Source: Caldibacillus thermoamylovorans (lineage in GTDB: Bacteria > Bacillota > Bacilli > Bacillales > Caldibacillaceae). Taken from it: a stretch of 64,000 bases of DNA. The notes beneath the pieces were generated by a model. The model made no database searches, was not told where the DNA came from, and saw nothing but the letters and a program-made list of their open reading frames with translations. A program made the translations under genes and the position numbers. Shown here piece after piece: positions 8,408 through 46,400 of this stretch (positions are counted from its first letter, which is position 1; each line of letters starts with the position of its first letter). The stretch spans positions 19,365-83,364 of the forward strand of contig NZ_CCRF01000083.1 of assembly GCF_000751775.1 (NCBI RefSeq), written 5' to 3'.

Positions 8408-8493
8408 TCCTTTTAAAATTATTTACAACGTATCGATTGAACGATGAACGGGCACCAGAGTCCCTTTTATAAATTTGGTAAATATTAGATTTA

Positions 8494-8943
8494 TCAATCC
8501 AACTTTTGTGAAATTAGCTGGAAATCTTTTGTGTAATGGAATGTACCAAACTGAACATTTTCCCCAAATAAGGCTTGTTGAATAATCAATCGATCTCCTT
8601 CAGCCATTGGTAATTCATCTACTTTATCGACCGGATGCCATTGCAGCTTTCCTTCCCTTGTTACATTTTTTTGTATGCCGTCACCTTGATTCGTAAAAAA
8701 AGTAAACATCATCCATTCGGTAAACTTATCATCATCTTCTATTAAAAAAGTGTATATACCTTTTATGATGGGATCGCGAATTTGGATTCCCGTCTCCTCC
8801 CCATATTCACGGATGGCTGCTGCTTTTACGGTTTCTTTTGGCTCTACTTTTCCACCCGGTATGGCCCACCAGCCGCGACGAGGTTTTTGCAACAACAAGA
8901 TTTCCCCGTTTTTCATATATATACAATTTGCAACTCTTTGCAT
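8494..8943 (-). CDS. yvcI: Nudix hydrolase YvcI
   Basis: Nudix-fold hydrolase (149 aa) acting on nucleoside diphosphate derivatives. The Nudix box is complete: GGKVEPKETVKAAAIREYGEETG with the REx2EE core. The ATG 8943 is preferred over a GTG three codons earlier, since the protein then begins MQRVANCIY like the B. subtilis homologue; spacing to GGAG is long for the ATG and short for the GTG. First gene of the rapZ-yvcK-whiA-crh group. Confidence 0.9.
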   Translation of the reverse strand: MQRVANCIYMKNGEILLLQKPRRGWWAIPGGKVEPKETVKAAAIREYGEETGIQIRDPIIKGIYTFLIEDDDKFTEWMMFTFFTNQGDGIQKNVTREGKLQWHPVDKVDELPMAEGDRLIIQQALFGENVQFGTFHYTKDFQLISQKLD

Positions 8944-8952
8944 TTCTCTCAC

Positions 8953-9382
8953 TCACTCCAGACCATATAATCAAGTCAACATAATATAGTAATTGCTATT
9001 GGTCGACCGGCTTTTAACACCGTGAATTTGACCATCATGATTATAAAGGTAAAGGTAAATCATTATATTATTACTTAACTAATATTATTATACTATACCT
9101 TATCACATGCAAACAATGAAGTGAATGAATAATCATTACCTGTAGAAATAAGTGATAAAATCTAACATCAGCGGGGTGTCGACTTCCCCTGGTTATTGTA
9201 AACGTACAAAAAAAGTACAGGATATCTCCTGTACCAAAAAAATATATTTAAAAGGGGGTCAATTTCTTCATACCTTTATAATACTCTTTCTTTGTTTCAT
9301 ACGTGTTACAGCAGCGTTAAACGACGATTACTTTTTTTCTTTAAATTGTTAATGAAACAATGAACCCTCTTCAACTTTGATA
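8953..9382. other. Intergenic region between trxB and yvcI
   Basis: About 430 bp without a credible gene. It holds the trxB terminator (9207-9241), a short GC hairpin near 9168-9191 (GGGG/CCCC arms) and an AT-rich tract at 9050-9105 that probably contains the yvcI promoter, though no single good -35/-10 pair stands out. Confidence 0.6.
9207..9241 (-). terminator. Terminator after trxB
   Basis: Perfect 8-bp stem GTACAGGA/TCCTGTAC with a TATC loop (9215-9234), with seven A on one side and eight on the other. On the minus strand, after trxB, it gives a hairpin plus T run. Confidence 0.9.
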
Positions 9383-10357
<975 letters not shown>

Positions 10358-10576
10358 TCAGGTATTGTTATGGACGGTTTAATCGGTTTTCGAATTCGTT
10401 TTATCGATGAGAATCTTTTTTATGGACAGTTTGAACAGATTTTCTGTTCGTTATGCGTTATGTCCCTAAAGCTCAATAGATTGACACCAATTACTACAAA
10501 TTTGCAACAGATTCAAGTGACCCTGTAGTTCTTGATACTACATAAATTTCAAACATTTTACCACTATTATGCTCAA

Positions 10577-11608
10577 TCATTTCGTAAACATTGGTATTTC
10601 TTCATGTTTCCAAGGTTCCTGCCCGTCCTTTTCCGGATGTTCTAACAAGAGCTTCTTCCATGCTTTTTCTGCTAAGTTCATTTTCCCCATCTTATAGGCG
10701 GCATAGGCAAACCAATAAAAAAAGATACCCTCAACTTCATTGCCATCATGTAAAATTTTCTTGAGCCAATGATAGCCAAGTTCATATTGTTCTAAAATTA
10801 ACAAAGTAACACCTAATTTATAACGATGATCAACAGAAATGGGATAAACTTTTTTTAATATATCTAATAACGGCTTTACATTCTTTCCTTTATAAAAATC
10901 AAGTACCGACAGATTACATAGTGCATGTAAGTTTCCCGGGTTTTCTTCCAGCACTTGTTGGAGTATCTCAACAGACTCTTTGGATTTTCCTTGGTAAAAA
11001 TAGGCCAATGCCAGATTGTTATACGCAGGCCAAAAATTTGGGTACTCACGAATCATTTGTTCTAATAATGGAACTGCTCCATCAAAATCACCGTCTTCCA
11101 TTAATTTTCGCGAATGTTCCTGTTTTTCAATCAGTTCATCTTCATACTCCATATGATTTTCTGTCAAACAAGTCGTTTTTATTTCATCTGCTTCAAGAGA
11201 TATGATTTCCAATAATTCCTGTGCATCACTTGTATATTCCCCATTTGGAGCTGATTTCAAATATTGTTTGACATGTTTCTTTGCTTCCATATAATTACCA
11301 ATATAGGCATAATTATTTGCTAAAAAGTAGTGACATTCAACCATGTATGGATCGATTTCACTTAGGACTTTCAGTAAAATTTTATTAGAAGAATCATATT
11401 CACCCATTTCAGTTAAAACAATGGCAAGTTGACAAGCAATAATTGGCTCAGTTGGTTCAAATTTCCAAGCACGAGCCAAATACTTTTTTGCCTTTACCAA
11501 ATCATTCCTTTCAAATGCTGCAATTCCCTTTGAAAAGAAAAATTCCCCTGAAGGATTGAACATTAAAATATTACCATCAATATGATTATTGCTTACATTT
11601 TTACTCAC
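10577..11608 (-). CDS. yvcD: TPR-repeat protein YvcD-like
   Basis: Cytosolic tetratricopeptide-repeat protein (343 aa) with several 34-residue helical pairs, for example PAYNNLALAYFYQGKSKESV and the repeats around it. No enzymatic motif is visible; such proteins mediate protein contacts. The start is set at GTG 11608 because GGAGG lies 7 nt upstream; the longer frame to 11689 would include that site and a hydrophobic stretch that is probably not translated. It lies upstream of trxB as in B. subtilis. Function unknown. Confidence 0.85.
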   Translation of the reverse strand: MSKNVSNNHIDGNILMFNPSGEFFFSKGIAAFERNDLVKAKKYLARAWKFEPTEPIIACQLAIVLTEMGEYDSSNKILLKVLSEIDPYMVECHYFLANNYAYIGNYMEAKKHVKQYLKSAPNGEYTSDAQELLEIISLEADEIKTTCLTENHMEYEDELIEKQEHSRKLMEDGDFDGAVPLLEQMIREYPNFWPAYNNLALAYFYQGKSKESVEILQQVLEENPGNLHALCNLSVLDFYKGKNVKPLLDILKKVYPISVDHRYKLGVTLLILEQYELGYHWLKKILHDGNEVEGIFFYWFAYAAYKMGKMNLAEKAWKKLLLEHPEKDGQEPWKHEEIPMFTK

Positions 11609-11764
11609 AAAACATCCTCCAAAAATCATGATGTATTTATATAATGATGTAATAAAGCAGTAGAGAAGCACACAGCCGAAAAGTATCATTTTCTTCGTGC
11701 TCGGAAAAAGCCACTACCGGAAGATTCTTCGTCCCGCATTCAACATCACTTTAATTTTAAAAAC

Positions 11765-12301
11765 TTATTTATTTAGAGGATCGGTCAAGCGGTCATGGTT
11801 TCTTCTTTTTTCCATCTCTTCTTTTGTATAAATAACCTGCATCGGGTTTCCGCCGACAAACGAACCCGGAGGAACATTACGGTTCACAAGTGTCCCTGCA
11901 GAAACCGTTGCCCGGTCACCAATTTCTACCCCCGGCAGTATCGTTGAATTTGCACCGATCATGACCTCATCCCCAATTCGAACCTCTCCTACCCGATATT
12001 CATCAATCAAATATTCATGTGCCAAAATCGTCGTATGATATCCAATAATCGTATTTTTACCAACATTAATTTTTTCCGGAAACATTATATCCGGCATGAC
12101 CATAAACGCAAAAGCCGTATGATCGCCCACCTTCATTTTTAAAAACTTACGGTACATCCAAACTTTCCAGGACATGAACGGTGTATAACGAGCAATCAAA
12201 ATAACGATGACGTTTTTAAATACCTTCCAAAAAGACACGGTTTTATATATTTGCCATAATGAATTGGCTCCTTGAATCGGGTAACGGGTCGTTTTCCGCA
12301 T
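11765..12301 (-). CDS. yvoF: Hexapeptide-repeat acyltransferase YvoF
   Basis: Left-handed beta-helix acyltransferase of the maltose/galactoside O-acetyltransferase type (178 aa). Hexapeptide repeats are clear (IGDEVMIGANSTILPGVEIG, then GDRATVSAGTLV) and a C-terminal GGNPMQVI ends the domain. The substrate is unknown, possibly a cell-envelope sugar. The gene is 3 bp downstream of ppaX, so it belongs to the hprK-lgt-yvoD-ppaX-yvoF unit. Confidence 0.88.
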   Translation of the reverse strand: MRKTTRYPIQGANSLWQIYKTVSFWKVFKNVIVILIARYTPFMSWKVWMYRKFLKMKVGDHTAFAFMVMPDIMFPEKINVGKNTIIGYHTTILAHEYLIDEYRVGEVRIGDEVMIGANSTILPGVEIGDRATVSAGTLVNRNVPPGSFVGGNPMQVIYTKEEMEKRRNHDRLTDPLNK

Positions 12302-12304
12302 AAA

Positions 12305-12952
12305 TTATTTCACTCCAACAATAGCCAATAAGTCACGCATATCATGAATTAAAAAATCCGGATTATACTTTTTTAAGTAGTCTGTCCCTTGAATGGTCCA
12401 AGCAACTCCAACGGATCCTGTGCCGGAATTTTTCGCCCCCAATATATCATGGTAAGAATCGCCGACCATCAACGTGCTTTCCGGTTTTGCCCCTAACAAG
12501 TGCATCGCTTTATTTAACGGTTCCGGATCCGGTTTTGCTTTCTCTACTTCATCCAATGTGATCACTACAGGAAAATATGGAGTTAAGTTGGTTTTATCCA
12601 ACGCTTTAAAAACCATCTCTCGTACTTTCGTAGAAACAACACCGAGCTTATATCCTTGTTTGGAAAGCGTATCGATTGTCTCGAGAACCCCCGGAAACTC
12701 ACGAACAAGTTTATCATGATGTTTTTTATTAAACGTTCGATAGTAATGGATCATTTCTTCCGCTTTATCCGGTGCAACTGATGAAAAAGATTCATATAAA
12801 GTTGGTCCAATAAATTTGTAACAGTCTTCCCTCTTCAATTCATCGAATCCAAATTGATGAAAAGTATAAAGAAATGATTGCAAAATAAGTTCATATGTGT
12901 TAACTAAAGTCCCGTCTAAATCAAATAAAATCGTATCAATATTTTGTTTCAT
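12305..12952 (-). CDS. ppaX: Pyrophosphatase PpaX
   Basis: HAD-superfamily phosphatase that hydrolyses inorganic pyrophosphate produced when HPr kinase/phosphorylase dephosphorylates P-Ser-HPr. HAD motif I is DLDGTLVNT, with the nucleophile Asp near residue 11; motif III lysine is in EKAKPDPEPL and motif IV is GDSYHDILGAKNSG. 215 aa, as in B. subtilis. It overlaps yvoD by 17 bp and shares an operon with hprK, which supports the role. Confidence 0.94.
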   Translation of the reverse strand: MKQNIDTILFDLDGTLVNTYELILQSFLYTFHQFGFDELKREDCYKFIGPTLYESFSSVAPDKAEEMIHYYRTFNKKHHDKLVREFPGVLETIDTLSKQGYKLGVVSTKVREMVFKALDKTNLTPYFPVVITLDEVEKAKPDPEPLNKAMHLLGAKPESTLMVGDSYHDILGAKNSGTGSVGVAWTIQGTDYLKKYNPDFLIHDMRDLLAIVGVK

Positions 12953-13889
12953 AAGAGATTCCCTTTCTTTTTGCTGCTAGTTCCATCCGATTCCAGATCC
13001 TGCTGACAATAAGTGTTAAAGCAATTGCCGTACATAAACGAATTATAAATAAAGGAAAAACCGGGATACCTAATGGAACAAAAATCAATGTATCTTCAAC
13101 GACAGCATGGCACGCAACGAGAAAAATAAATGCCAATGTCGCATCTTTTTTGCTGACACCATCCTCTTTCACCGCTTGCAATAATACACCTGCCCCATAG
13201 GCTAAACCGAAAATTAAGCCGGCCGTCAAAACCAATGCCGTGTTTTCATTCATCCCTAATCCACGGGTAACGGGAGCCATCCATCCGGTAAATACATCCA
13301 ACCATTTTAAATCTTTAAGAATTTGAATGCCGATCATCAATGGAATTACAATCATCGCCAATTGAAGAGTACCTAATACGGCTTTTTGCAAGCCAGCAAG
13401 AAAAATAGCCGCCATACCAACCGGTGCTGTTTCATTTGCTGTTATTAAACCATATTGGGCCATTTCACTCCCGCCCGGCCAAACCAAATTGATAATAAAG
13501 GCTGCAACCAATGCTAAACCGATCCGAACAGATAAAACGACCCAGAGTTTAACACCGGATTTTAATGCTACACTTGTTTCAATTAGTAAATTATGGGAAA
13601 AACTAAGCATAACTGCGATAATAAATACTTCTTTAACAGTAAGGTCAAGTGTTAAAATCCCGCCAATTGCCGCATATAAGTTTAATAGATTACCCAGTAC
13701 AAGAGGGATGGCCGCCTCACCCGACAAACCGAAAACGGACATAAATGGTGCCAACTTGTCAAATAACCACGGAAGTGCAGGAGTGTATTGAAGCAAGGAA
13801 ACGACTAAGGTTACCGGGAAAATTACTTTTCCCAATGACCAAGTGGTGTGTAACCCATTCATAATCCCTTGCTTTACCGAATTTAACAA
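12936..13889 (-). CDS. yvoD: Membrane protein YvoD, nucleoside-recognition (GATE) domain
   Basis: Polytopic membrane protein (317 aa) with about eight hydrophobic segments and two GATE/nucleoside-recognition-like halves, related to the spore maturation proteins SpmA/SpmB. Transport substrate unknown. It sits between lgt and ppaX, as in B. subtilis; the overlap with ppaX suggests coupled translation. Confidence 0.85.
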   Translation of the reverse strand: MLNSVKQGIMNGLHTTWSLGKVIFPVTLVVSLLQYTPALPWLFDKLAPFMSVFGLSGEAAIPLVLGNLLNLYAAIGGILTLDLTVKEVFIIAVMLSFSHNLLIETSVALKSGVKLWVVLSVRIGLALVAAFIINLVWPGGSEMAQYGLITANETAPVGMAAIFLAGLQKAVLGTLQLAMIVIPLMIGIQILKDLKWLDVFTGWMAPVTRGLGMNENTALVLTAGLIFGLAYGAGVLLQAVKEDGVSKKDATLAFIFLVACHAVVEDTLIFVPLGIPVFPLFIIRLCTAIALTLIVSRIWNRMELAAKRKGISYETKY

Positions 13890-28546: not shown

Positions 28547-29035
28547 ATGGATATAAAATTATTTTACCTTTATCGCATTGCCAATATGATACCAATGTAT
28601 ACAGTCGACATTTTTTTACGGTATTTGAGTTGGTGTGGCGTAATTTTGGACGGCCGTGTTCATTTCTTAAATTTCAGCATAATTGCAAAGAGTGTCTATT
28701 TTTTTGACATTCATTCAATTATTAGACATTTGTTTAGATTATCAACCGAATAGCAAATATGTATGCTAATGCTGAAAAACAGTTATTTTTAAGTCGATTA
28801 GTTTTGCGAATAGATCTACCATTTTCAATTAGATGACAATCAGAATGTGGTAATTCATCGTTTGAGGCGACTCATAAATAAAGAGCTAACATTTTTTTAT
28901 TGGATGAGCGTCTAAGGAAGAAAAAAGACAAAAACACCTAATGCGAATCCAGATGGAAAAGTTAATTATACCTTTCAATGTTTCAGCACAAATTCCCGCA
29001 AACCATACTAGTTTATCAGAAGTTCCATTGCTTAA
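28547..29035. other. Non-coding or decayed DNA
   Basis: About 490 bp of AT-rich sequence without a supported gene. Short open frames here lack ribosome sites and recognisable composition. Near 28945-29010 a plus-strand frame reads NANPDGKVNYTFQCF, possibly a protein fragment that I cannot identify. Confidence 0.5.
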
Positions 29036-29134
29036 CTTTCAATCCACGCACCCATGAAGAGTGCGACTTGATTATTATGAGCTTAAAAGATTGTTAGCTT
29101 TGATTTCAATCCATGCACCCATGAAGAGTGCGAC
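29036..29134 (-). CRISPR. Detached two-repeat CRISPR fragment
   Basis: Two 32-bp copies of the array-1 repeat (29036-29067 and 29103-29134) enclose one 35-bp spacer. Each copy has one change (C for A at the first base; CCATGC for CCACGC). Orientation is that of the main array 2.5 kb to the right. It has no leader. It looks like the old, leader-distal end of array 1, separated by later insertion or rearrangement. Confidence 0.9.
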
Positions 29135-29152
29135 ACTAAACAAGCACGCTGA

Positions 29153-33897: not shown

Positions 33898-34188
33898 CTA
33901 AACAATTAATGTTCCCTCCATATCAATTGAAGGTTTTATTCCGATATGCTCAACCTTATTTTTATAATTATTTCCCAATTTATAAAATCGAAGACTATCT
34001 TTTTCTTTATCTATAACACTCTCAAGTTCAAATTTTAATGTAGTATATTGAGTAGCGTCAACTACACATTCGAAAACTGAATTTTGTACACGTTGTCCAT
34101 AATTTTGACATATTTTTGAAACTCTCCGTAATCTCTTTTGTCCTGAAGTACTAACCGTATTAACATCATATGTTATTAATACGAGCAA
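33898..34188 (-). CDS. cas2: CRISPR endonuclease Cas2, type I-C
   Basis: 96-aa ferredoxin-like fold protein that bridges two Cas1 dimers during spacer acquisition. Starts LVLITYDVNTVSTSGQKRL with the conserved Asp in strand 1 (TYDV). TTG 34188 start behind GTAGGTGAGAG; no ATG is available. Eight bp after cas1. Its stop lies within the array-1 leader element. Confidence 0.95.
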   Translation of the reverse strand: MLVLITYDVNTVSTSGQKRLRRVSKICQNYGQRVQNSVFECVVDATQYTTLKFELESVIDKEKDSLRFYKLGNNYKNKVEHIGIKPSIDMEGTLIV

Positions 34189-34196
34189 TCTCTCAC

Positions 34197-35228
34197 CTAC
34201 TTCCAGAAAAATGGCGGATATTCATCTAAATCAGAACGTAAAAAACGTGCTAATAATAAAGCTTGAACATGAGGAACGAGCCCCCATGATATCTTTTCTC
34301 CTAAAAATGTATGTGTGATCTTTTCCTGCTTCCTGCTTTGCCATGATTTGAGAAACTTCTTCCTCGCCTCATCAGTCATCACAACCGCTCCATTTTCCTT
34401 TTTATAAAAATCATCACGATTTACAACCTTTGTATTAATTAATGACAGAACGAATCTATCCGCATACACACCCCGCAACTCTTCCATCACATCAAGCGCT
34501 AAAGAAACTCTTCCCGGTCGGTCCCTATGTAAAAAGCCTACGTATGCATCTAGCCCGACTCCTTCCAAAGCAGATGCGGTGTCATTCGCTAATAGTGTAT
34601 AAGCAAACGATAACATCGCATTAACATTATCCGTTGGCGGTCTGCGGTTTCTGGAATGGAAATAAAAATCCTCCTTTTGCTGTAGTATCAATTGATTGAA
34701 AAGCTTGTTATAACATGTAGCTGCTTGACCTTCCAACCCTCTTAATCTTTCTAAATCCTCACATTGTCTAACATCTTGGATAATCGTTGATAGATTACTG
34801 GAAGCTTCCTTAAATTTTGCAACATCAATTCGCAACGGATAATCTCTTGTTGCCCTTTCAAGAATCCATTTATTATTGAAAATCTTACCAACAATAAAAT
34901 TACGGGCTATTTTTGCAGAAGCTTGTTCATCATCAGACACCCGATACTGTTTTTTTCTTAAAACAACATTACCCCTGCTCTCTCCTGTAACTCTTGCTAA
35001 AAATCTGCCATTCATCGTTAAAAAAACAATAGAAATGTTTCTTTCCGCACAGTATCCCATTAAAGCAGGACTTGCCCCAGTATATCCAAAAGCTACTATG
35101 GATTCTAAATTATGCAGTGGGAATCTACCTAACTTTTCTTGTTCTTTTAACAAAATAATATTGTCTCCATCTAGGGCCAAATAAACATCTGGTTGTGTAA
35201 CAAACAGTGTATTTAACAACTTTTTCAT
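34197..35228 (-). CDS. cas1: CRISPR integrase Cas1, type I-C
   Basis: 343-aa metal-dependent integrase that joins new spacers at the leader end. Metal-binding residues: Glu in LRGLEGQAAT, His in GFLHRDRPGR, Asp in SLALDVMEELR. It overlaps cas4 by 4 bp. Works with Cas2 and, in I-C, with Cas4, which selects and trims PAM-containing prespacers. Confidence 0.97.
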   Translation of the reverse strand: MKKLLNTLFVTQPDVYLALDGDNIILLKEQEKLGRFPLHNLESIVAFGYTGASPALMGYCAERNISIVFLTMNGRFLARVTGESRGNVVLRKKQYRVSDDEQASAKIARNFIVGKIFNNKWILERATRDYPLRIDVAKFKEASSNLSTIIQDVRQCEDLERLRGLEGQAATCYNKLFNQLILQQKEDFYFHSRNRRPPTDNVNAMLSFAYTLLANDTASALEGVGLDAYVGFLHRDRPGRVSLALDVMEELRGVYADRFVLSLINTKVVNRDDFYKKENGAVVMTDEARKKFLKSWQSRKQEKITHTFLGEKISWGLVPHVQALLLARFLRSDLDEYPPFFWK

Positions 35229-35884
35229 TCATTTATCATCCCATCAATATAACTTTTGACCGAACGTTTCGTCATTAAATTAGGTAAACAAACATTTTGG
35301 AGAGAACAGCTTTTGCAAAACTTTCCCGTTTTCACTTTTGGTGTATGTTTTCTTTTATAATAATCCTGCATTTCGGTAACAATCAAGCGCACTTTATCTT
35401 TATATTCATTGGTTAGTGGAATTTCAACCCTATGTCTTATCTCATTGTAATATAAGAATCCCAACGTAATTTCGCAAGCAAACATTTCTTCTAAACAAAT
35501 TGTTTGTGCGGTTAACTGTAAGATATCGGATTCATCTTTTTTTGGTTTACCCCGTTTATACTCAACAGGGTAAACCATGAATTTGCCTTCTTCACCAAAA
35601 ATCGTTATTCCATTTTTGTCCTTGATAAATTCGACTACATCACAAACGCCAGTTATTCTAAGTTCATTCGATTTCACAGGCATTGCACGAACAATTAACT
35701 TTTCTCCTCGTTTTTCCCTAGTAAAAGGGTTGTCCGCATTCCGATGTAGATGCTGACCTTCAATTGTTTTTACGTTTTCCTCCCATTGTTGTTCAATATG
35801 AATTAATGCCCATTGTCTTTTACAAAATTGAAAATGTTGAATACCAGATAACATAAGATATTCATCTTCATCATTATAGGCCAT
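35225..35884 (-). CDS. cas4: CRISPR exonuclease Cas4, type I-C
   Basis: RecB-like nuclease with an iron-sulfur cluster, 219 aa. First cluster Cys in FCKRQWALI; three more in TGKFCKSCSLQNVCLPN. Nuclease residues in the YPVEYKRGKPK segment. Start at ATG 35884, which follows GAGG inside the end of cas7; a frame to 35896 exists. It defines PAM and orientation of new spacers. Confidence 0.95.
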   Translation of the reverse strand: MAYNDEDEYLMLSGIQHFQFCKRQWALIHIEQQWEENVKTIEGQHLHRNADNPFTREKRGEKLIVRAMPVKSNELRITGVCDVVEFIKDKNGITIFGEEGKFMVYPVEYKRGKPKKDESDILQLTAQTICLEEMFACEITLGFLYYNEIRHRVEIPLTNEYKDKVRLIVTEMQDYYKRKHTPKVKTGKFCKSCSLQNVCLPNLMTKRSVKSYIDGMINE

Positions 35885-36737
35885 CAATAACCTCAACCTT
35901 TAAGCCATCTAACTCATGTAATTTTATTTCATAATCATCAATTGATTTTGGTTCTTCTACTTTATGGTTAATTTCCAAAGAACGATGAACTTTTGCTGAT
36001 GAATACTGACCCAATTTCGAGTTATGTTCCCACCAATAGACTTTATGAACTTCCATACTTCCTTCTGGCCTTGCCGATGAAGCATCGTTTTCGAATAAAG
36101 TAACTAGTGCCTGCTTAATCTTTTCTGCATCCTCATTTGTAAAACCTGTTTTTTCAGCTAATTGCGTATTAATGCTTCCGTAAAATACATACACACCAAA
36201 ATCAACACGGTGCTTCATTCCCATCGTATCTGATCCTTTTTCTTTACCGGGTTCTGAATTTACACTTTTAGTAATTTGAGTACTGACAATATCGATCGGG
36301 TCAATACTTGTTGCAGTATGAATAGAAACAGGCCCTCTAACACCTACTGAAACGCCTGAACCACTGCCAGAACTTTTAAAGGCAAAAACTTGACCAAAAC
36401 TTCTAACATCGATCCACTCTTTGCAGGCAATTTGAGCAAATTCTTCACTTGAACTGTTTTTTGACTTTAATATTTTTTGTAAATCAGAGTTGGCCTCAGC
36501 CCGTTCTCTTAAACTTTTATATCCATCGGTGTTCTTATCATTGGATTGAACAAAAATTGGTTCACCCATATCTTGTAGCCGATTTCTTATTTTTCTCTTA
36601 ATGGCAACATCAGAAATTTCCCCACGTCCGTCATAATTTTGCCTAGGACGATTACCGTTAAGTGGGTCCCCGTTCGGATTCGCTTTTGTTACTGATAAAA
36701 TAACGGCAAAATCAATTTTATGGTCTAATGTACTCAT
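35874..36737 (-). CDS. cas7: Cascade backbone protein Cas7, type I-C (Csd2)
   Basis: 287-aa RAMP-fold protein that polymerises along the crRNA. Contains the Csd2 opening FAVILSVTKANPNGDPLNGN and DGRGEISDVAIKRKIRN, and glycine-rich GSGSGVSVGVRGPVSIH. Overlaps cas8c by 4 bp and cas4 by 11 bp. Confidence 0.96.
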   Translation of the reverse strand: MSTLDHKIDFAVILSVTKANPNGDPLNGNRPRQNYDGRGEISDVAIKRKIRNRLQDMGEPIFVQSNDKNTDGYKSLRERAEANSDLQKILKSKNSSSEEFAQIACKEWIDVRSFGQVFAFKSSGSGSGVSVGVRGPVSIHTATSIDPIDIVSTQITKSVNSEPGKEKGSDTMGMKHRVDFGVYVFYGSINTQLAEKTGFTNEDAEKIKQALVTLFENDASSARPEGSMEVHKVYWWEHNSKLGQYSSAKVHRSLEINHKVEEPKSIDDYEIKLHELDGLKVEVIDGL

Positions 36738-38632
36738 TCTTGATTCTCTCCTTCATTTGTATTTTTTTCGTGCTTTTGATACAATTCATGTCTTTGACTA
36801 TAAAAACCTAATAAATATTTACCCGAAAGCGGCTTATTATTGAAATCTTCTAAATTAATTCTTGAAGCAACTTCATCTATTAACATGGAAAAATATTGAC
36901 CTTTTTTACCAAGACGCATTTGATAAGGTTGCAAGCTTGCTTGAATTGTTTTCCAAGTTCTTTCTGGGTGTTTAGAAAAAGAATTCATAAATCGAATTGC
37001 ATTTGTAGAACGGTTTTCATCCGGACCAAGAGCTGATCTTTCAAGGACATCGGCAATAGCCAATAATCTACCGAATAAGTAATCACGGTCATTGTTTTCT
37101 TTATCTAAGGACACAGTATATCCCTCCTTTTTATTAATGAGTGCACAAGCAATACTGAGTGTTTTCTCCCACTCCCATCTTTCCATTCCAACCGGGTTCG
37201 ATGCTCGGTAAAAAGCACTTTTCGTAATATCCTCGGGAATCTCCCTTTGATCGATAATGCAAGGAAGAATCCGCTCCATTAGTCCTTTCACAACTTTATC
37301 ACTAGCAGTTGGGCCATAAGCAGCAAAAGCAATATCTTTCGTTGCAGGTGTACCTATAAAAGTAACCCTCTTTCCATCCCCATCTTTCCTATATGTATGG
37401 CGCCACACACAAGTAGAGTGCCAATTTATAAGACGATTTAAATACTCTTCTTTATTCAAATTCCGATAATAAAGTACAGCCAACCGACCTGTCGTAGCGG
37501 AGTCCAGTATCATAATGTTGACATTGGATTTTATCGATAAATTATTTTTGTATCCTTCAATGGCTTTTGCAAATTCAGTAGCAAATTCTTTGTTCGTATA
37601 AGAGATTCTTTCCGTTTTTTCGGGTGTCTCTCTTAAAAAGTCAAGCGAATATAGATCATAAGTATCATCTGTTGTGTTTGGAACATTTACATCATCATTT
37701 CCCCATACAAGAAAGACGCGATTATCAATGATTTTACCTTGACGATTAATTAACCACTTTAAAGCATTATGAGCTTTCTGTGAAACCTCATAACTAATCG
37801 TTGCTACTTGTTTACTATCCGTAAATCGCCCTCGAAAAGTAAAGCCGCTTTTATCATTTGCAGAAATGAGTTTTGCTTTATCCCCTGAATTCCGAATCTT
37901 ATTTGCATGTTTCTCGGTAAAAGGTTTATTTTTCCCGGTAACATAGCAGTAATCATTATCACTTAGTTTTCCATTATAGTAGTTAATAAAGGATTCATAC
38001 ATTTCTTTATCCTTCCATATACTTGTTAAAACCTTTGTAGCCGAATAAACGTTAAATCGAACAAATGCACTTGCTTGTTCACCTGCCACTACGGAAAAAA
38101 TCTTTGGTTTTTCACCATATAATGCCTCATACTTTTTATCCCATTTCTTTATGAGTTTTCCGTCTTCATCCAAGTAAAGAATTCCTTCATTAACTAAATC
38201 CCTAATTAATTGCCCTTTTTTTAGATATGTGTAGATACTTTTTACTTTTGGAACAGCAAAAGGCGACACAGCCCACTCTTCTAATTGTTTAATATAATTA
38301 TTAAATGGCTCTTTTTGTTTTCCTCCAAATGAGGTAAAATCTCCTGCAACATAACTTAATTTATCATGTAAAGGATATGGAGGTGCTTTTATCCCAGAAC
38401 GACTTGCAGAATCCTCGGTACAAGGTATCACGGTTATTGCGTCTGCACCATCAACAATTGAAGCAGAATGAAACTCACCGTCTTCTGTTATTTGTACTTC
38501 AATGTGTGCGGTTTGTGTCGTATGCGATATAGGCAGCAATGTAAATTCATTTCCATTATGCTTAAACTCAATTTTTCCTACTTGGTCAACATTTGACTCA
38601 TAGGTTTCATATAAATTCAATAACCAGCTCAA
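36734..38632 (-). CDS. cas8c: Cascade large subunit Cas8c (Csd1)
   Basis: 632-aa type I-C large subunit; recognises the PAM and recruits Cas3. Csd1-like features include the N-terminal MSWLLNLYETYE and the segment FRVNVYSATKVLTSIWKDKE-like region plus LMERILPCIIDQREIP. In I-C an internal start in this mRNA yields the small subunit Cas11c in studied systems; the C-terminal quarter here (about residues 500-632) could do the same, with no obvious separate ribosome site seen by eye. Confidence 0.95.
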   Translation of the reverse strand: MSWLLNLYETYESNVDQVGKIEFKHNGNEFTLLPISHTTQTAHIEVQITEDGEFHSASIVDGADAITVIPCTEDSASRSGIKAPPYPLHDKLSYVAGDFTSFGGKQKEPFNNYIKQLEEWAVSPFAVPKVKSIYTYLKKGQLIRDLVNEGILYLDEDGKLIKKWDKKYEALYGEKPKIFSVVAGEQASAFVRFNVYSATKVLTSIWKDKEMYESFINYYNGKLSDNDYCYVTGKNKPFTEKHANKIRNSGDKAKLISANDKSGFTFRGRFTDSKQVATISYEVSQKAHNALKWLINRQGKIIDNRVFLVWGNDDVNVPNTTDDTYDLYSLDFLRETPEKTERISYTNKEFATEFAKAIEGYKNNLSIKSNVNIMILDSATTGRLAVLYYRNLNKEEYLNRLINWHSTCVWRHTYRKDGDGKRVTFIGTPATKDIAFAAYGPTASDKVVKGLMERILPCIIDQREIPEDITKSAFYRASNPVGMERWEWEKTLSIACALINKKEGYTVSLDKENNDRDYLFGRLLAIADVLERSALGPDENRSTNAIRFMNSFSKHPERTWKTIQASLQPYQMRLGKKGQYFSMLIDEVASRINLEDFNNKPLSGKYLLGFYSQRHELYQKHEKNTNEGENQE

Positions 38633-39349
38633 TTATTCCCTCCCCCCTTCAAGTTCTTCATATAAGCGTTCAACTGACTCCATATTCTTCTCATCAAAAT
38701 GTTTCGCTTTCATATCTGCAATCGGGCGTACTTGTGTGCATTGATCAGGTCGAATAAACGAAATAACACCATTTTTCATTACCGGGTTCCAAAGCCGAAT
38801 TTCCATTTGGTCTTTCCCTGTTTCATCCGGATAATTTATCCCGTGCACCATTGTTCCAAAATGAATTTCTTCAATACCATCGTAGGCGCTTTCTCCCTCT
38901 CCAAAAACACATGGCTCAACATACCCTTGACATTCTCTTGTTCCTAAAAAAATATCTCTTCGTCCACCTGCTTTTAGTGAACGCTTCAGTATATTGTGAT
39001 GCTTATGTTCGTTTCGATCAAAGGCTAAATCCGGACGATGCGGGTTAAAAATAAAATGAGCTCTTACTTGATAACATACATCTTTAAGATATGTATAGTT
39101 AGCAAGTGTATTTCCACCGCCATATTCAATCGGACGAATCCCTTTCGATTCCATTCGAATCGGATTCATCACTCGAACTTCATCAATTACATATAAAATC
39201 GTTGGTTTCCAATACACGCTTTCTAATATTCCTTTTATCGCTTGGTATGTTGGTATTTGATAACTTAACTTTTCCCCTCCCATTTTCGTTAGTGGATCAG
39301 TAAACAAAGCATAATCTCCATAAACCTTAAATTCAACTGAGTTTCTCAA
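38633..39349 (-). CDS. cas5: Cas5c (Cas5d), crRNA-processing endoribonuclease, type I-C
   Basis: In I-C, Cas5 replaces Cas6: it cuts pre-crRNA repeats and stays bound to the 11-nt 5' handle. 238 aa starting (M)[15 protein letters not shown]. Catalytic Lys-His pair fits EHKHHNIL; the Tyr fits PTYQAIKG. Start at TTG 39349, 8 nt after AAAGGGG; a GTG at 39358 is too close to it. No cas6 is present in the locus, which agrees. First gene of cas5-8c-7-4-1-2. Confidence 0.94.
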
Positions 39350-39405
39350 AAAATTCACCCCTTTCAGTTTTTATATATATTTATAAGATTCCCACCCAAA
39401 AATGA

Positions 39406-39445
39406 TGTCACGCTAAACATTAGTTTGCAAATAGTTAACGTGGCA
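39406..39445. repeat. Inverted repeat in the cas5 leader
   Basis: TGTCACGCTAA (39406-39416) and TTAACGTGGCA (39435-39445) are inverted with one mismatch and one wobble, 18-nt loop. In the cas5 mRNA leader it can form a stem; as DNA it could bind a dimeric regulator. Confidence 0.55.
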
Positions 39446-39508
39446 CAAAACATTTGAATCTTGAGAAGGGAGTTTTTTACAAATTTAACCTTTTGGATAG
39501 GAATCATA

Positions 39509-39537
39509 ATTATAATATAACTCCAACTCTCTAAAAA
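39509..39537 (-). promoter_or_regulatory. Putative promoter of cas5-cas8c-cas7-cas4-cas1-cas2
   Basis: TATAAT at 39514-39509 on the minus strand with a weak TTTTTA -35 at 39537-39532 (17-bp spacer). A weak -35 is usual where expression is kept low. The leader of the transcript would be about 150 nt. The match site of the nearby crRNA-like RNA abuts and overlaps its -35 side. Confidence 0.45.
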
Positions 39538-39544
39538 AGTTATT

Positions 39545-39563
39545 AAATAATATAATATATGAA
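39545..39563 (-). promoter_or_regulatory. PAM plus 16-nt match site for the crRNA-like RNA
   Basis: On the minus strand, TTC (39563-39561) is followed by ATATATTATATTATTT (39560-39545), identical to the first 16 nt of the pseudo-spacer at 39643-39658. TTC is the usual I-C PAM. A bound Cascade would cover down to about 39527 and so mask the -35 of the cas5 promoter. After position 16 the match breaks, which should allow binding without Cas3 cleavage. Confidence 0.7.
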
Positions 39564-39566
39564 CAC

Positions 39567-39595
39567 TTACTTCTTTTATTTTTATATGTTATAAT
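39567..39595 (+). promoter_or_regulatory. Promoter of the crRNA-like small RNA
   Basis: TTACTT (39567-39572), 17-bp spacer, perfect TATAAT (39590-39595). The expected start of transcription, near 39601-39603, coincides with the GTCGC that opens the degenerate repeat. Confidence 0.65.
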
Positions 39596-39600
39596 AAATT

Positions 39601-39690
39601 GTCGCTTTTTCACCCTAGAAAAGAAAAGGCGTGGATTGAAAAATATATTATATTATTTGTGAACCTATCTGAAAACGATAGGTTCTTATA
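39601..39690 (+). ncRNA. Candidate crRNA-like regulatory RNA (CreR/CreA-like) between cas3 and cas5
   Basis: Opposite in strand to the cas genes. 39601-39642 is a degenerate I-C repeat: it begins GTCGC, keeps GCGTGGATTGAAA at the end, and its middle is rewritten as CGCTTTTTC / GAAAAGGCG, a 9-bp stem with one G-U pair. The last 11 nt (TGGATTGAAAA) differ from the authentic handle by the final base only. The pseudo-spacer 39643-39658 matches a TTC-flanked site at 39560-39545. A 9-bp hairpin (39661-39685) ends the unit. No protein is encoded. By analogy with Cas-regulating RNAs it may guide Cascade to repress the cas operon; this is inference. Confidence 0.7.
39661..39685. terminator. Hairpin between cas3 stop and the crRNA-like RNA
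   Basis: GAACCTATC and GATAGGTTC pair perfectly around TGAAAAC. It directly follows the cas3 stop on one strand and ends the crRNA-like RNA on the other. Neither side has a strong T run (TTAT on the plus side), so termination may be partial. Confidence 0.55.
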
Positions 39691-42103
39691 CAATAAGATC
39701 ATTAAGCGAACTATCATTATTCACATTGATGCCAAACTTATTACTATATGCACCTTCAGTAACTGCATAAATTTTCCCGCCAAAAAGTGATACAATTCCA
39801 TTATTTTTAGCTAATTGATCAAATTCTTGACTATAAAGGTTAACTGTATATTGCTGGGCTTGTTTTAATAATTTTGTTAAGTCATCAATTGATCCATTTC
39901 CAGTAAGTTCTGTAATAATATCCTCGCCTCGACCATATGGAACAATAACGGATGTCGTTCGATTTTCGATGACTTGAAAATATTCTGCAGCTGTTTTATA
40001 ACTATTTACTAAGTAAAGTGGAAGATCGTCCCCATATTTACTACGGAATCCTTGACAGTATGTGGAATTTGCCTTTTTAACATTCAGTAATTCCACTAAA
40101 TTTTTTCCTAATTTTGGTATATAATAATTTAGATTCGATTCTAACTCATTATAAAACTCTCTGAAATATTTCTTCATTGCTTCAGTGGTTAAGATACTTC
40201 CTCCATGTAATCGAGGATTATTTTTAATATCTTTTAAAATACGTGCTGAAACCTTCTTGCCAACCTTTATTTCTTTTAACTTATCAAGATTTTCTTCCAT
40301 ATGGTCAATCACATATACATAACCTAGATCTTTTTTACCGTGACGATTACATCTTCCAGCTGCCTGGGCAATAGAATCCAGTCCGGCTAATGAACGAATC
40401 ACACAATCAAAACTAATATCAACCCCTGCCTCAATAAGTTGGGTGCTTACACAAATCAATTTTTCCTCATTATCCAGCTTTTCTCTAATTTCATCCAATA
40501 TTTCTTTCCGATGAGCCGCACACATAGAAGTACTTAAGTGATAAACCGGTATGGACGTTTCTTCTTTTAAAAGTTCATATAGCTTTTTCACAACAGATTT
40601 TGTATTCAATACGACCATTATGTTTTGTACTTCATCCAATTTCGTTTGAATAAAGTTGCAAAGTTTATTCGTATCAAATTTTTCATCTGTAGCTCGATCA
40701 ATAATTTCTACTCTTTTAAAAGCATCAATTACCTCATCTAAATTCTTTATTATTTCAGCATCCTTATTTATGGACAACTTGTTTTCTACAAAATCAAGAG
40801 CCGGTTGGGTAGCTGTACACAGAATCATGCATGAATGGCAATAATTATTCAAAAAATTAACTGCCTTGTTAAATAATGAAATACAAGATACGGGAATCTT
40901 TTGTACTTCATCAAAGATAATAACTGCTTCACTTAAATTATGTAATCTCCGGATATTTCGACTTCCGTAAGCATAAAAGGTGTTTAAAAATTGGACCATT
41001 GTTGTAAAAATGATTGGAGAATCCCAATTATCTTTTGCCAATTTTAATTTCTGTTGGATACTCATGATTCCGTCTTGGCATTCATCATCCTCATTATCCT
41101 CGATCACGTTCGAATGATGTTCTAAAATATTTTCATTATCGTCTAATATTTCTCTGACTTCAGCTGCATTTTGCTCAATGATTGTCGTATAAGGAACAAC
41201 ATAAATAATTCTTTTTTTCTTGTATTTTATTGCATGTTTAAGTGCATATCTTAAACTTGCCAGTGTTTTTCCGCCGCCTGTCGGGATTGATAATGTATAT
41301 ACTCCTGAAGGTTGAAGTGCAAAGGCCTCGCATTGCTCTGACATCTCTTGCCTTAACCGGTTAATCGGTTTGGCTGCATTACCATCTTTTTTAAAGGAAT
41401 TAATCTTATCCATAAGTTTTTTATAGTAGTTTTCAAACAGATGAACTTGATCAATTTCGTTCTCGATGGATCGATCTTCCTCAAACATTCTCGTATTTGT
41501 CCGATCGGCATCAATTAATGCACTAAAGACAAATTTTGTTAAAAACATAACATTATTTTCAATGCCTTCTGAAGGATGCTTTTTTAGAAATTCTTGTAAT
41601 TCGATAGTGGCCTCATGAACATATTGATTAAAATCAATTTCAGATATGACCTTTTGAAAGAAGTTCTGTTTTGTTGTTTCATAGTTATTTAGTTCTTTAT
41701 CCCTGACTCTTTTTAAATAATTTGATTCTAAATCGGGACTTAAAAAATCCTGTAAATAAGAATGATGCGAGATAATGGCATTACCGACAACCTCTGCAAG
41801 AATACTTTCAATAGGATTTTTGGGATTATGGAATCGCTCGAATAACAATTTACCTCCTGCTGTTGAATGGTCAACACTCCCACGTTTCGGAGGGGAGAAA
41901 GGATTATTTACCGCTTCCAAAATATATTCTTGAAATTCATCTGAATATTTCCCTAAATCATGAAGCATTCCTGCTAAACCAGTAATATGTGTAATTCCAA
42001 TTTTTGCTCCATAAGCTTCGGCAAATTCTTTTGCTTCTAGAAGGTGTTGTTCAACTGTTTGAATCTTTTTATCACTTTCTCGTATATGTGCAATAGAGTC
42101 CAA
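39686..42103 (-). CDS. cas3: CRISPR helicase-nuclease Cas3, type I-C
   Basis: 805-aa effector that degrades DNA marked by Cascade. N-terminal HD nuclease: HITGLAGMLHDLGKYSDEF. Helicase motifs: SIPTGGGKTLASL (Walker A), IIFDEVQKIP (DExH type), CTATQP, and QAAGRCNRHG (motif VI). Start placed at TTG 42103, 8 nt after AGGGG, giving (M)DSIAHIRESDKKIQTVEQHL as in the family; a frame to ATG 42133 includes the ribosome site. Separated from cas5 by the 327-bp gap with the crRNA-like RNA, so probably transcribed on its own. Confidence 0.96.
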   Translation of the reverse strand: MDSIAHIRESDKKIQTVEQHLLEAKEFAEAYGAKIGITHITGLAGMLHDLGKYSDEFQEYILEAVNNPFSPPKRGSVDHSTAGGKLLFERFHNPKNPIESILAEVVGNAIISHHSYLQDFLSPDLESNYLKRVRDKELNNYETTKQNFFQKVISEIDFNQYVHEATIELQEFLKKHPSEGIENNVMFLTKFVFSALIDADRTNTRMFEEDRSIENEIDQVHLFENYYKKLMDKINSFKKDGNAAKPINRLRQEMSEQCEAFALQPSGVYTLSIPTGGGKTLASLRYALKHAIKYKKKRIIYVVPYTTIIEQNAAEVREILDDNENILEHHSNVIEDNEDDECQDGIMSIQQKLKLAKDNWDSPIIFTTMVQFLNTFYAYGSRNIRRLHNLSEAVIIFDEVQKIPVSCISLFNKAVNFLNNYCHSCMILCTATQPALDFVENKLSINKDAEIIKNLDEVIDAFKRVEIIDRATDEKFDTNKLCNFIQTKLDEVQNIMVVLNTKSVVKKLYELLKEETSIPVYHLSTSMCAAHRKEILDEIREKLDNEEKLICVSTQLIEAGVDISFDCVIRSLAGLDSIAQAAGRCNRHGKKDLGYVYVIDHMEENLDKLKEIKVGKKVSARILKDIKNNPRLHGGSILTTEAMKKYFREFYNELESNLNYYIPKLGKNLVELLNVKKANSTYCQGFRSKYGDDLPLYLVNSYKTAAEYFQVIENRTTSVIVPYGRGEDIITELTGNGSIDDLTKLLKQAQQYTVNLYSQEFDQLAKNNGIVSLFGGKIYAVTEGAYSNKFGINVNNDSSLNDLIV

Positions 42104-42137
42104 TTTATCAACCCCTAGTTTAAAAATAATCACTATT

Positions 42138-42166
42138 ATTATACTACTTTTTTCCTATTTATTTAA
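42138..42166 (-). promoter_or_regulatory. Putative promoter of cas3
   Basis: TATAAT (42143-42138 on the minus strand), 17 bp after a weak TTAAAT. No copy of the crRNA-like match site is seen here. 42170-42352 shows nothing else. Confidence 0.5.
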
Positions 42167-42352
42167 GCGTTTTCATTATTTTTTCAAAATATTTATATGG
42201 TTACTATCCAAAGAGTCCATTTTTCCAAAATATTAAGCTTTGTGCAGCATTAAATAGAGTTCATGCTATATTTAACATAAAGTTGTTCGAAAAACTTTTT
42301 TGAGTTTTGTACTAATCATATGATTCGAACTCTAGCAATTTTTACTTAATTT

Positions 42353-43055
42353 ATTTCAATCCACGCACCCCGTATAGAGTGCGACGCCAACCGTTCGTAA
42401 ATCGGTTCCCACAGTTTTACATTTCAATCCACGCACCCCGTGAAGAGTGCGACCCATCTAATAATACCGCATATGTCTTTCCGTTTATTTCAATCCACGC
42501 ACCCCGTGAAGAGTGCGACGTCAGGACCGGAGCCGTTACGTGAAATGTTCGAAGATTTCAATCCACGCACCCCGTGAAGAGTGCGACCGTGTAAACTGTC
42601 CGCCGAATACTTTATCCGCAACATTTCAATCCACGCACCCCGTGAAGAGTGCGACGTAAAATGCTTTCGTTATCAATTTATTAAAAAGGAATTTCAATCC
42701 ACGCACCCCGTGAAGAGTGCGACCCACATTACGAGACTTGTTTTTTTAAGTATTATAATTTCAATCCACGCACCCCGTGAAGAGTGCGACATAGCGGTTT
42801 TAAAAGTATTAAAGACTTTAGCAATTTCAATCCACGCACCCCGTGAAGAGTGCGACAAAAGGGTGAAATTGCCACTGGGAATATAATAGATTTCAATCCA
42901 CGCACCCCGTGAAGAGTGCGACATCAATATAACACCTTGTCAACATTTATTTATACATTTCAATCCACGCACCCCGTGAAGAGTGCGACTTAGCCTTGTT
43001 GTAAATCCTTATCTTGACATCTATTTCAATCCACGCACCCCGTGAAGAGTGCGAC
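42353..43055 (-). CRISPR. CRISPR array 2, 11 repeats and 10 spacers
   Basis: 33-bp repeats, differing from array 1 by CCCCGTGAAG in place of CCCATGAAG (one extra base in the loop side of the stem). Spacers are 33-35 bp. The left-most repeat (42353) is altered (GTATAGAG), marking the leader-distal end, so it is read leftward toward cas3 with its leader at 43056-43230. Confidence 0.97.
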
Positions 43056-43230
43056 AGCGATTTCTGTAATTTTTTTATTAAATAATTACAGAAATACACT
43101 ATTTCCTTTAGGTAACTAAAGAACAAAACAAAAAATATTAACATTAATGGGAAATACTGGATAATTTAATAGTAATTTTTTGTGCGAATCCCCTAATGAA
43201 ATCATGTTCACTTACTATTCGCACCTACAT
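43056..43230 (-). promoter_or_regulatory. Leader of CRISPR array 2
   Basis: Shares with the array-1 leader the contact octamer AGCGATTT, the palindrome CTTTAGGTAACTAAAG (43106-43121, one change, same 50-bp distance) and the 43-nt GTGCGAA/TTCGCAC element (43182-43224). Elsewhere the two leaders differ. 43231-43320 holds nothing recognisable. Confidence 0.8.
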
Positions 43231-43323
43231 TTTTTCTTTTCCCTCCAAGGACTATAACCAAATTAACTTATTTTCTCCTTAAATATATATTAACGAATCT
43301 GCATTGATTTTTCACCATTTATT

Positions 43324-43360
43324 AAAAAACCAGCTCAATTACCTTTCTGAGGTGGTTTTA
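43324..43360 (-). terminator. Terminator after MMPL gene
   Basis: On the minus strand AAAACCA-c-CTCA pairs with TGAG-c-TGGTTTT, followed by a T run. Confidence 0.75.
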
Positions 43361-43436
43361 ATTGGTTATATTTAAACTTAAGGAGATGACTATATATACT
43401 TTCCTTCTAGGTTGATCTAAAGCTCTTTTCCAAGTA

Positions 43437-46400
43437 CTAATCTTTCTTACCCACAAACGGCCACCAGTTGGCTTTGCCGAAGATTTTGACGACGACCGGA
43501 ATAAATAGCGGCAGCATGATCACTGAGTATAGGACGAGACCGGAAATGACGACTGTGGCGATTTGTAACAATGATAAGACACCACTTGGAAGCATCGCTG
43601 CAAATGTACCGCCCAAGATGATGACTGCCGAAATGATGACTGAGCCCATTGAGCCCATGGCAAGGATCATTGCTTTATCAACCGGTTCACCGCGATATTC
43701 ATTGAATCGGCCCATTAAGAAAATGCTGTAGTCGACGCCAAGAGCCATTAAAATAACAAATGAGAAGAATGGGACGGCCCAAGTTAATCCTTCATAACCG
43801 AGCAAATTAACAAAAATCGCTTCGGTTATACCCATCGTTGTAAAATAAGTAAGCAGTAAGGACGCTACAATATAGATCGGCATAATTAATGATCTGAATA
43901 GGATAACTAGTACGATGAAAATACCGACCAACATAAATACAACCGTTCTGGAAAAGTCTTGATCTGACATGGTTCCCAGATCATGATTCATGCTCGTTAC
44001 ACCGGCGACTTTTACTTTCGCATTTTCTAACTTTGTATCTTTCACAGCACGTTCGACTGCAGCTTCCAGTTCTCCTACTTGATTGATTGCTTCTGTTGAA
44101 TACGGGTTTTCACTGAAAATAACATCTATCTTGGCAATTTTTTTGTCAGGTGATAAATACGTATCCAGTACTTGGGCGAATTGTTTATCTTCTAAAATTT
44201 CGTCCGGAATAAATATACCTGTGTCTTCTTTACTTTTGGCTAACTCTGATAAAAATCCTTCCGCTTCTGTAAATCCGTCATGAATTTGCGTAAGTCCATT
44301 AACACTTTGACCGAGACCGTCAGTCAATTGACCGAACTGACCGCCAAGTTGGGAAAATCCATCCAACAATTGTTGTTGACCCGAATTTACTTCACCGAGG
44401 CCAGAACTTACAGCCGGTAACTTTTTGATAATAGTGCCTTGACCATCAGCGGCTGAATCAAGTCCTTTTTCTAAAGCGTCAATTCCGTCAATCACGCTTT
44501 GCAATCCATTGATTAGTTGCTCTTGCCCGTTATTAAGTTTAGCAAAATTCGTATTCGCTGTTTTCAAACCTTCTGTAATAGCACCGAGACCTTTATTCAA
44601 TTCGGTAATCCCGTTTGCCATCGCAGGGAGATTTTGTTGTAAAGCAGTATAATACACTTTTATCCCTTTAAAACTTTCGACTGCATTCTTTTTCAACTGA
44701 TCACTTTCCGGTCGGCTGTTCAAATAGTATTCAAGAAAATCAAACGCTTGTTGGAGGTTTGAAAGTTTGCTATTAAGCTCTACTAAACCATTTTCAATAT
44801 TTTTATAGTTTGTTTGTATCGTAGATAAATTGGTTTGGACTTCACTGTAACCTTGGGCAAGCTGTTTATATCCGGCCAACATTTGCTCAGCATTTTTCTT
44901 AATCTCTTCAAGTCCCGCTTTTGCCTCTCCGGCACCGGTTGAACCTTGGCGAATACCGGCTTCAATTTGCTGAAGACCTGTTTGCAATTGACCTATACCT
45001 GTCTGTAATTCTTTCGTACCGGAAACTAAGGCACTAATCCCGTCTTTTGCTTCGGTAATTTGTGGTGATGATGCGGCGAGTTTGGAATTTGCTTCATCCA
45101 ACCCGTCACGAATCTGTTTAATTCCATCATTCCCTTCATTAATCCCATCTTTTAATACCTCAGCTTGGCTGGCCACAGATAGATCATCCAATTTTTCGCC
45201 GGTCGGACGGGTAAGGGAACGCACGGTGTCGACACCATCTACCTTTTCCAACTCACCGCTAATATTTTCTATGATGGACATATATTCGGTTTGATCCATT
45301 TCTTCATCATTTTTAATAACAACTGTCGTCGGCATAGCCTGACCCGGGCCAAAACGATCTTTAATAATATCGAATCCCTTTACCGATGAATAACCTTCAC
45401 CGATTTCATCCATTGAGTTGTAGGATAAACCGCCATTGTACGTAACAATAAAAGGAATCGTAATAACGGCAACGATTAATAAAGATACAAGTGGTCTGGC
45501 AAAAGAAATCCGTCCGGCAAATGTCCAAAGCCGGCTTGGTTTATGTTCCAAGCTTCCTTTCAACGGCCAGAACAGTTTTTTCCCAAGAACAGCCATAAAA
45601 AATGGAACAATCGTGAATAAAGCAGCTAAAAGTACGACAATCCCAACGGCTACAGCTGCTGCGGATTGATAGAGCTTGAATTGCGAGAATCCGATAACCG
45701 CAAAACCGATTAAAACTGCAATTCCACTAAATAAAACCGTTTTTCCGGCATGGCGATAAGTTTCTACAATTGCATCCGTTAAATTTTCCCGGGCGGATAA
45801 CTCTTCTTTAAAACGACTCAACAGCAATATTGAATAGTCGGTTCCGATACCGAACAGGACCGCCACAAGAAAAATTTGGGTAAAATTTGATAACGGGAAG
45901 TTCAAAAATTCCACTAAAAAAGCAACAATTGATTGTGAAGCCAAATAGCTAATCCCTACCGTAAGTAACGGAATAAATGGTGTCACAATCGAACGGAAAA
46001 CCGCAATGAGGACGATTAAAATGAATACAACAGTAATCGTCTCTGTTTTTTTCAACCCGGCTTCTGAGGTGAGAATGACATCTTCATTAACAAATAGATT
46101 TCCGGTATAATAGTGTTCCAATTTAATATTCTCAATTGCGTTGTACAAATCATCACTTAATTCATGTGCCGTCCGATCCTTCAATTCGACGGACAAAGAA
46201 ACGAGAATCGCTTTACCATCTTTTGATACAAGTTGATCTTTTAATTCTTCCTGATTAAAATGAGTTAATATATTTGTAATCCCCAGTTGCTCTTTTTTGT
46301 CTTCAAGTTGTTTGACAGCTTTCTTCACTTGTTCTATATCTTTTTCCGTCAGACCATCTTTATTGTGAAAAACGAGAGCAACCGATGTTGTATTTTCTGC

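Follow-up and report, generated by a model that had tools for sequence, protein, structure and literature searches.

CreR RNAs originate from a stand-alone repeat, and they are defined in part by a repeat-like sequence that stands alone within or next to a cas locus and has its own promoter; a PAM lies beside the site. A second repeat that closes the spacer is common in CreR mini-arrays. Shmakov et al. 2023 (NAR) reportedly predicted crRNA-like elements, stand-alone repeats with promoter complementarity, mostly in type I systems. According to PMC13131331, CreRs mediate autorepression in I-B, I-E and V-A systems; there and in PMC12737573 a CreR is presented as a crRNA-like RNA, partially complementary to a cas promoter, by means of which the effector autorepresses. 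CreA of CreTA (type I-B, haloarchaea) is described in PMC8730458 as a repeat-like and a spacer-like part with partial promoter complementarity, which serves Cascade as a repressor of the toxin promoter, and that description contains no closing second repeat. The same source attributes RNA-guided autorepression of the CRISPR operon to the long-form tracrRNA of Cas9 (PMC8730458; the RNA is unnamed in PMC13131331).

Judging from its sequence, an element in the type I-C cas locus of Caldibacillus thermoamylovorans very probably encodes an RNA of the CreR type, which would guide the I-C Cascade to the promoter of cas5-8-7-4-1-2 and repress it without cutting. It is a stand-alone repeat-like element inside the cas locus with its own predicted promoter, and its spacer-like part shows limited complementarity that is PAM-adjacent and in register, at a cas promoter that is itself predicted. 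The predicted RNA resembles CreRs in being crRNA-like with partial cas-promoter complementarity, and its repressing function is proposed by analogy with them. In contrast to the I-B, I-E and V-A cases, the element belongs to type I-C, in which Cas5c replaces Cas6. It also differs from CreR mini-arrays, since no second repeat closes the spacer; a single repeat is followed by a terminator-like hairpin. CreA is built alike, but the site of the element precedes a putative cas5 promoter and not, as far as ORFs of at least 80 aa are concerned, that of a toxin. The autorepression by long-form tracrRNA is similar to the one proposed here, although it uses Cas9 and tracrRNA and no Cascade. No I-C case of a CreR was recognised in our literature search, which stopped short of Shmakov et al. 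2023 and Liu et al. 2023, and we do not claim that it is absent from print.

The element in the cas3-cas5 gap

The minus strand of the window (the whole stretch of 64,000 nucleotides analysed here) carries a type I-C cas locus with the gene order cas3-cas5c-cas8c-cas7-cas4-cas1-cas2. The gap between cas3 and cas5 measures 327 nt and contains no ORF of at least 80 aa. On the plus strand of this gap, an extended -10 box, a degenerate repeat, a guide and a hairpin up to the cas3 stop codon follow one another (Table 1). The preliminary description had a TATAAT at 39590 lead into a degenerate repeat on the strand opposite to cas, and all of these parts were found as placed. The best -10-like box ends exactly 7 nt 5' of the assigned stem in 18 of the 39 elements compared below, including that of the window; in several of the other 21 rows the automatic assignment of box or stem is doubtful.

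Table 1. Coordinates of the element, its target and the neighbouring features in the window
Feature	Position	Strand	Remark
cas8c, cas7, cas4, cas1, cas2	33898..38632	-	
cas5c	38633..39358	-	TIGR01876; first gene of the predicted regulated operon cas5-8-7-4-1-2
Putative -10, cas5 operon promoter	39509..39514	-	TATAAT; spacer of 17 to the -35
Putative -35, cas5 operon promoter	39532..39537	-	weak, TTTTTA; placed relative to the site as -35-like hexamers in relatives
Target site	39545..39560	-	on the cas strand; identical to the guide over 16 nt
TTC PAM of the target site	39561..39563	-	directly 5' of the site
Extended -10 of the predicted CreR promoter	39587..39595	+	TGtTATAAT; TATAAT 39590-39595, TG 39587-39588; expected start ~39602
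Stand-alone degenerate I-C repeat	39601..39642	+	stem, then 11-nt handle
16-nt guide (pseudo-spacer)	39643..39658	+	matches the site at 16/16; guide and site co-vary in relatives
Terminator-like hairpin, predicted RNA 3' end	39661..39685	+	GAACCTATC(7)GATAGGTTC; touches the cas3 stop codon
cas3	39686..42133	-	upstream of the element; the target promoter does not precede it
Canonical I-C array	42353..43055	-	competing source of crRNA

The repeat contains a stem of nine pairs, CGCTTTTTC/GAAAAGGCG (39603-39611 with 39623-39631, one G-U pair), which was confirmed by folding of the whole 94 nt (z -3.0). A stem rebuilt with compensating bases had been proposed, and as anatomy this holds. Across relatives it was not borne out: an anchored test for stem covariation was not significant, with 78 of 125 cells paired against a shuffled mean of 74.4, and 264 of 2000 shuffles reached that count. 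The test covered 36 of the 39 elements with 25 distinct arm pairs, and its outcome is due in part to slippage of the anchor in elements with another -10 distance. The handle of the element is TGGATTGAAAA (39632-39642) and the array repeat ends in TGGATTGAAAT; the 11-nt handle differs only at its last base, as had been noted. This base (position -1) is T in the window arrays and A in 26 of 39 elements. An 11-nt handle is cut by Cas5d, according to PMC5965380. Among 44 matches of GCGYGGATTGAAA in the genome, the element is the only copy on the plus strand. We also confirmed that the 16 nt after the handle equal the minus strand in exact register, directly 3' of TTC. The hairpin has a weak T tail, and a consensus scanner calls no terminator.

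CCTATC is found within 60 nt 3' of the handle in 30 of the 39 elements (a set from the best 80 of 577 loci plus the window), and forms the 5' arm of the hairpin in the rows with an assigned hairpin; such conservation is unusual for an intrinsic terminator.

Besides the array listed in Table 1, a second stretch of repeats runs from ~31.7 kb and ends near 33.74 kb, and a remnant of two repeats and one spacer lies apart from the main arrays at 29035-29135. Since a comparison of the I-C array of the window with phages yielded no useful protospacers (three records, 60-80% identity), the PAM was taken from the literature, where TTC is given as the I-C consensus of P. aeruginosa (PMC7913775). An Rfam scan of 38000-43500 returned no family up to E = 1. 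By eye (39347-39365), cas5 may start at TTG 39349 and not at GTG 39358, because a Shine-Dalgarno-like AAAGGGG overlaps the GTG. Between the promoter and cas5 (~39400-39510), some 110-120 nt appear by eye to be absent from locus L002; a second copy of 39400-39510 was sought across the genome and none was found, making this stretch single-copy.

Guide and site in related loci

Related loci were represented by 80 cas5-related I-C loci, the best 80 of 577 confirmed and nearly all from Bacilli. Together with the window, 43 loci carry a handle-like motif in the cas3-cas5 gap on the strand opposite to cas. When these elements were compared with their own TTC site over 14 paired positions, 28 matched at 14, nine at 13 and three at 12; the lowest were two at 8/14 and one at 6/14. 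Relatives that keep the repeat and have lost the match, which the preliminary description had named as counter-evidence, therefore do exist, as the minority of three with at most 8 next to 37 of 43 with 13-14. Guides swapped between loci (n = 1750) never reached 14/14, and 7% reached 13; where the swapped guides differed at three or more positions, none of 1394 reached 13/14, as opposed to 37 of 43 own guides.

The register was scanned with all 2056 handle-like motifs of the 80 loci, array handles included, allowing a TTC site within 800 nt. In the true register, 41 of the 80 loci (best 80 of 577) have a match at 12 or more of the 13 paired positions; there are 44 such hits, and 39 are perfect. 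None of eleven alternative registers gave more than 6 loci or 21 hits, and when TTC was replaced by any of thirteen other triplets, no more than 5 loci were obtained. Together with the co-variation of guide and site described below, this count supports the earlier assignment to an I-C member of the CreA/CreR RNAs.

For the analysis of co-variation, 39 pairs (38 loci and the window) were retained. Four loci were dropped from the 43 (L019, L068, L070, L078), their best TTC site having fewer than 9 matches over the ten positions 1-5 and 7-11; L019, L068 and L078 have a handle-like motif and no site, L070 only a weak site, and the handle of L078 may be due to chance. For each element the site taken was the one that matched best over positions 1-5 and 7-11, without regard to positions 13-16. 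Of the 39 pairs, 38 or 39 have the same letter in site and guide at each of positions 1-5, 7-11 and 13-15, and 30 do at position 16; at position 6 this holds for 7 pairs and at position 12 for 12. A co-varying pseudo-spacer and promoter match, sought in the gaps of related I-C loci, was indeed present: of 108 guide letters that depart from the consensus at positions 1-5, 7-11 and 13-16, the site shares 105 (34 of 36 at positions 13-16), while for positions 6 and 12 the figure is 5 of 38. The 39 pairs contain 26 distinct 14-letter guides, and, as the loci are related by descent, the pair counts are not independent events. In Cascade pairing, bases 6, 12, 18 and so on are described as flipped out (PMC5965380), and every sixth base is reported to be flipped in Class 1 complexes (PMC11127173). 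The freedom of positions 6 and 12 suggests that pairing by Cascade is under selection in the chromosome. Because the site in the window matches at positions 6 and 12 as well, this signature emerges from the relatives; the window by itself does not show it.

In 37 of the 39 pairs the guide reads in the same sense as the cas genes and hence cannot pair with their mRNA; antisense pairing was rejected for these pairs because of the strand. In L055 and L060 the site is on the other strand. In these two loci and in L176, the second I-C system of the same genome, the guide would be antisense to the cas strand, and pairing with cas mRNA is possible.

Handle and matching TTC site co-occur in 38 relatives among the best 80 of 577, belonging to 18 named genera and one Bacillaceae. 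Among loci with a gap of at least 150 nt, 39 of 50 are positive (L025, in which no cas3 end was found, is counted here) and 11 lack the pair. With shorter gaps, two of 30 loci are positive (L048 and L072) and the other 28 show no pair in the DNA examined. In L048 and L072 the element and its site lie upstream of cas3, so that the pair seems to follow the promoter. The family of the window is represented by two Cas5c genomes, apparently L002 with the pair and L024 without it. A handle-free search of the gaps of 16 loci lacking a qualifying pair, with guide on one strand and site on the other, gave a single 12/13 hit (L074), which has no handle.

A wider sample covered 398 genomes of the phylum, of which 110 had a Cas5c-like match; 60 loci, mostly higher-scoring, were picked by hand. 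Five of these 60 match at 12 or 13 of 13 positions, two of them perfectly (L128, L131), with 0 or 1 locus in other registers. Three of the 60 belong to the order or class of the window (L115, L117, L122), L115 apparently being the same record as L004. Given these five matches, this kind of element is concentrated in Bacilli and probably not confined to them.

Target sites in the window and in a second I-C system

The preliminary description cautioned that the matching stretch consists of A and T only and might be due to chance. This concern falls, because a pattern of 16 fixed letters, TTC and then the guide with any base allowed at positions 6 and 12, occurs once in the genome of 3,707,071 bases, at the cas5 site. 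When 39359-39600 was subjected to 20,000 dinucleotide shuffles, a 13/13 match behind TTC arose in one of them and at least 11 matches in 94.

The site had been placed beside a putative -35 of the cas5 operon, rightly so, as this hexamer starts at position 24 of the would-be protospacer. The promoter itself is weak (shuffle P 0.11), and the consensus scanner makes no call. Promoters were searched in the 39 pairs with the -35 allowed to start at site positions 11-50 and with a score favouring a 17-nt spacer. The best -35-like hexamer starts at protospacer positions 14-26 in 35 of 39 pairs (median 23; the remaining four at 29, 32, 35 and 49), and the mean score of the promoter pair was 12.4 compared with 10.3 in shuffles. 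Promoters of single loci are often weak (L055, P 0.59; L021, P 0.39). The site is more than 300 nt from cas5 in seven of the 39 pairs (L055, L060, L065, L074, L077, L080, L081). A Cascade covering the PAM and ~33 nt would sit over the -35, and an UP-element position could explain why the site is AT-only.

The same genome contains a second, divergent I-C system with cas3, cas5c, cas8c and cas7 on contig C81 (L176, C81:14000-33000; 7610-13530). It is flanked by a chemotaxis-receptor-like gene beyond cas7 and a gene for a PTS-domain regulator beyond cas3. Unlike the system of the window, it has no cas4-1-2 next to cas7; a single repeat lies beside cas7. About 330 nt upstream of cas3 lie a -10-like box, a handle that is not preceded by a stem, and a guide of non-AT sequence. 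With no 5' stem in this CreR-like element, its transcript may begin near the handle. The guide agrees at 13/13 paired positions with a TTC site that lies just ahead of the cas3 start; within the first 15 it is mismatched only at positions 6 and 12, and the pattern of PAM and guide is unique in the genome. In this system the guide runs antisense to cas, so that it might also pair with the cas3 leader.

Proposed mechanism and alternative readings

Transcription from the extended -10 is predicted to start at ~39602 and to end at the hairpin 39661-39685. As in I-C systems generally, Cas5c would cut below the stem, leaving the 11-nt handle, a guide of 16-17 nt and the 3' hairpin, that is, a short look-alike of a crRNA. 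Its guide is identical to the 16 nt beside TTC, and the match stops just before the putative cas5 -35. Cascade loaded with this RNA would form a partial R-loop, too short to license Cas3, and RNA polymerase would be blocked. Canonical crRNAs, or anti-CRISPR proteins that bind Cascade, would lower the amount of the repressing complex and cas expression would rise. Both the repression and its release by crRNA or anti-CRISPR are modelled on CreR RNAs of other subtypes.

The loaded Cascade might have a main output other than cas5 repression, tuning the element's own promoter or blocking read-through from cas3. The site does lie between two divergent promoters and the hairpin directly follows the cas3 stop codon, yet we regard this as unlikely: the site keeps step with a -35-like hexamer on the same strand as itself, in 37 of 39 pairs the cas strand, and it is found upstream of cas3 in both positive loci in which cas3 and cas5 nearly touch. 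That the 16-nt pair is merely an inverted repeat to which a conventional dimeric repressor of the divergent promoters binds, with an incidental handle, is very improbable. Guide and site are inverted in 37 of 39 pairs and lie between divergent promoters where these can be discerned, as such a repressor would have it. However, matches follow TTC and hardly any of thirteen other triplets, they appear only in register 0 from the handle, and the free positions recur at 6 and 12; moreover, some pairs are in direct orientation: those of L048, L055 and L060 and, beyond the main set, those of L131, L172 and L091/L122 (a single genome).

With arrays on either side of the cas genes and a remnant of two repeats at ~29035-29135, the segment could be taken for a decaying array remnant devoid of function. 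This is hard to reconcile with 38 relatives that have handle and TTC site together and with letters of guide and site that change jointly, and we consider it extremely unlikely. According to PMC10651486, phages have solitary repeat units that inhibit I-F and I-C systems, which would provide a precedent for a decoy RNA that binds Cas proteins and has no DNA target. A decoy needs no PAM-adjacent, co-varying site, and the element, unlike the solitary anti-CRISPR repeats (Racr) of viruses and plasmids, sits in a host cas locus; this explanation is almost certainly wrong.

If Cascade is guided to the cas5 promoter as proposed, RNA-guided autorepression of cas genes would extend to type I-C, a compact system without Cas6, and a cell that reads free Cascade would raise cas expression under anti-CRISPR attack. 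There is about an even chance that the elements constitute a widespread and undescribed family of I-C CreRs in Bacilli, with one repeat and a hairpin end, in which guide and promoter site co-evolve at the bases paired by Cascade and drift at the flipped-out positions 6 and 12. Such a family would document in nature how Cascade pairs with DNA, and this one genome would hold two autoregulatory loops, each with an address of its own; some 40 natural guide/site pairs are at hand. In two relatives (L006, 3694-5762; L059, 5110-5926), extra DNA lies between the target of the element and cas5, with ORFs in L006, and is possibly cargo under the same control.
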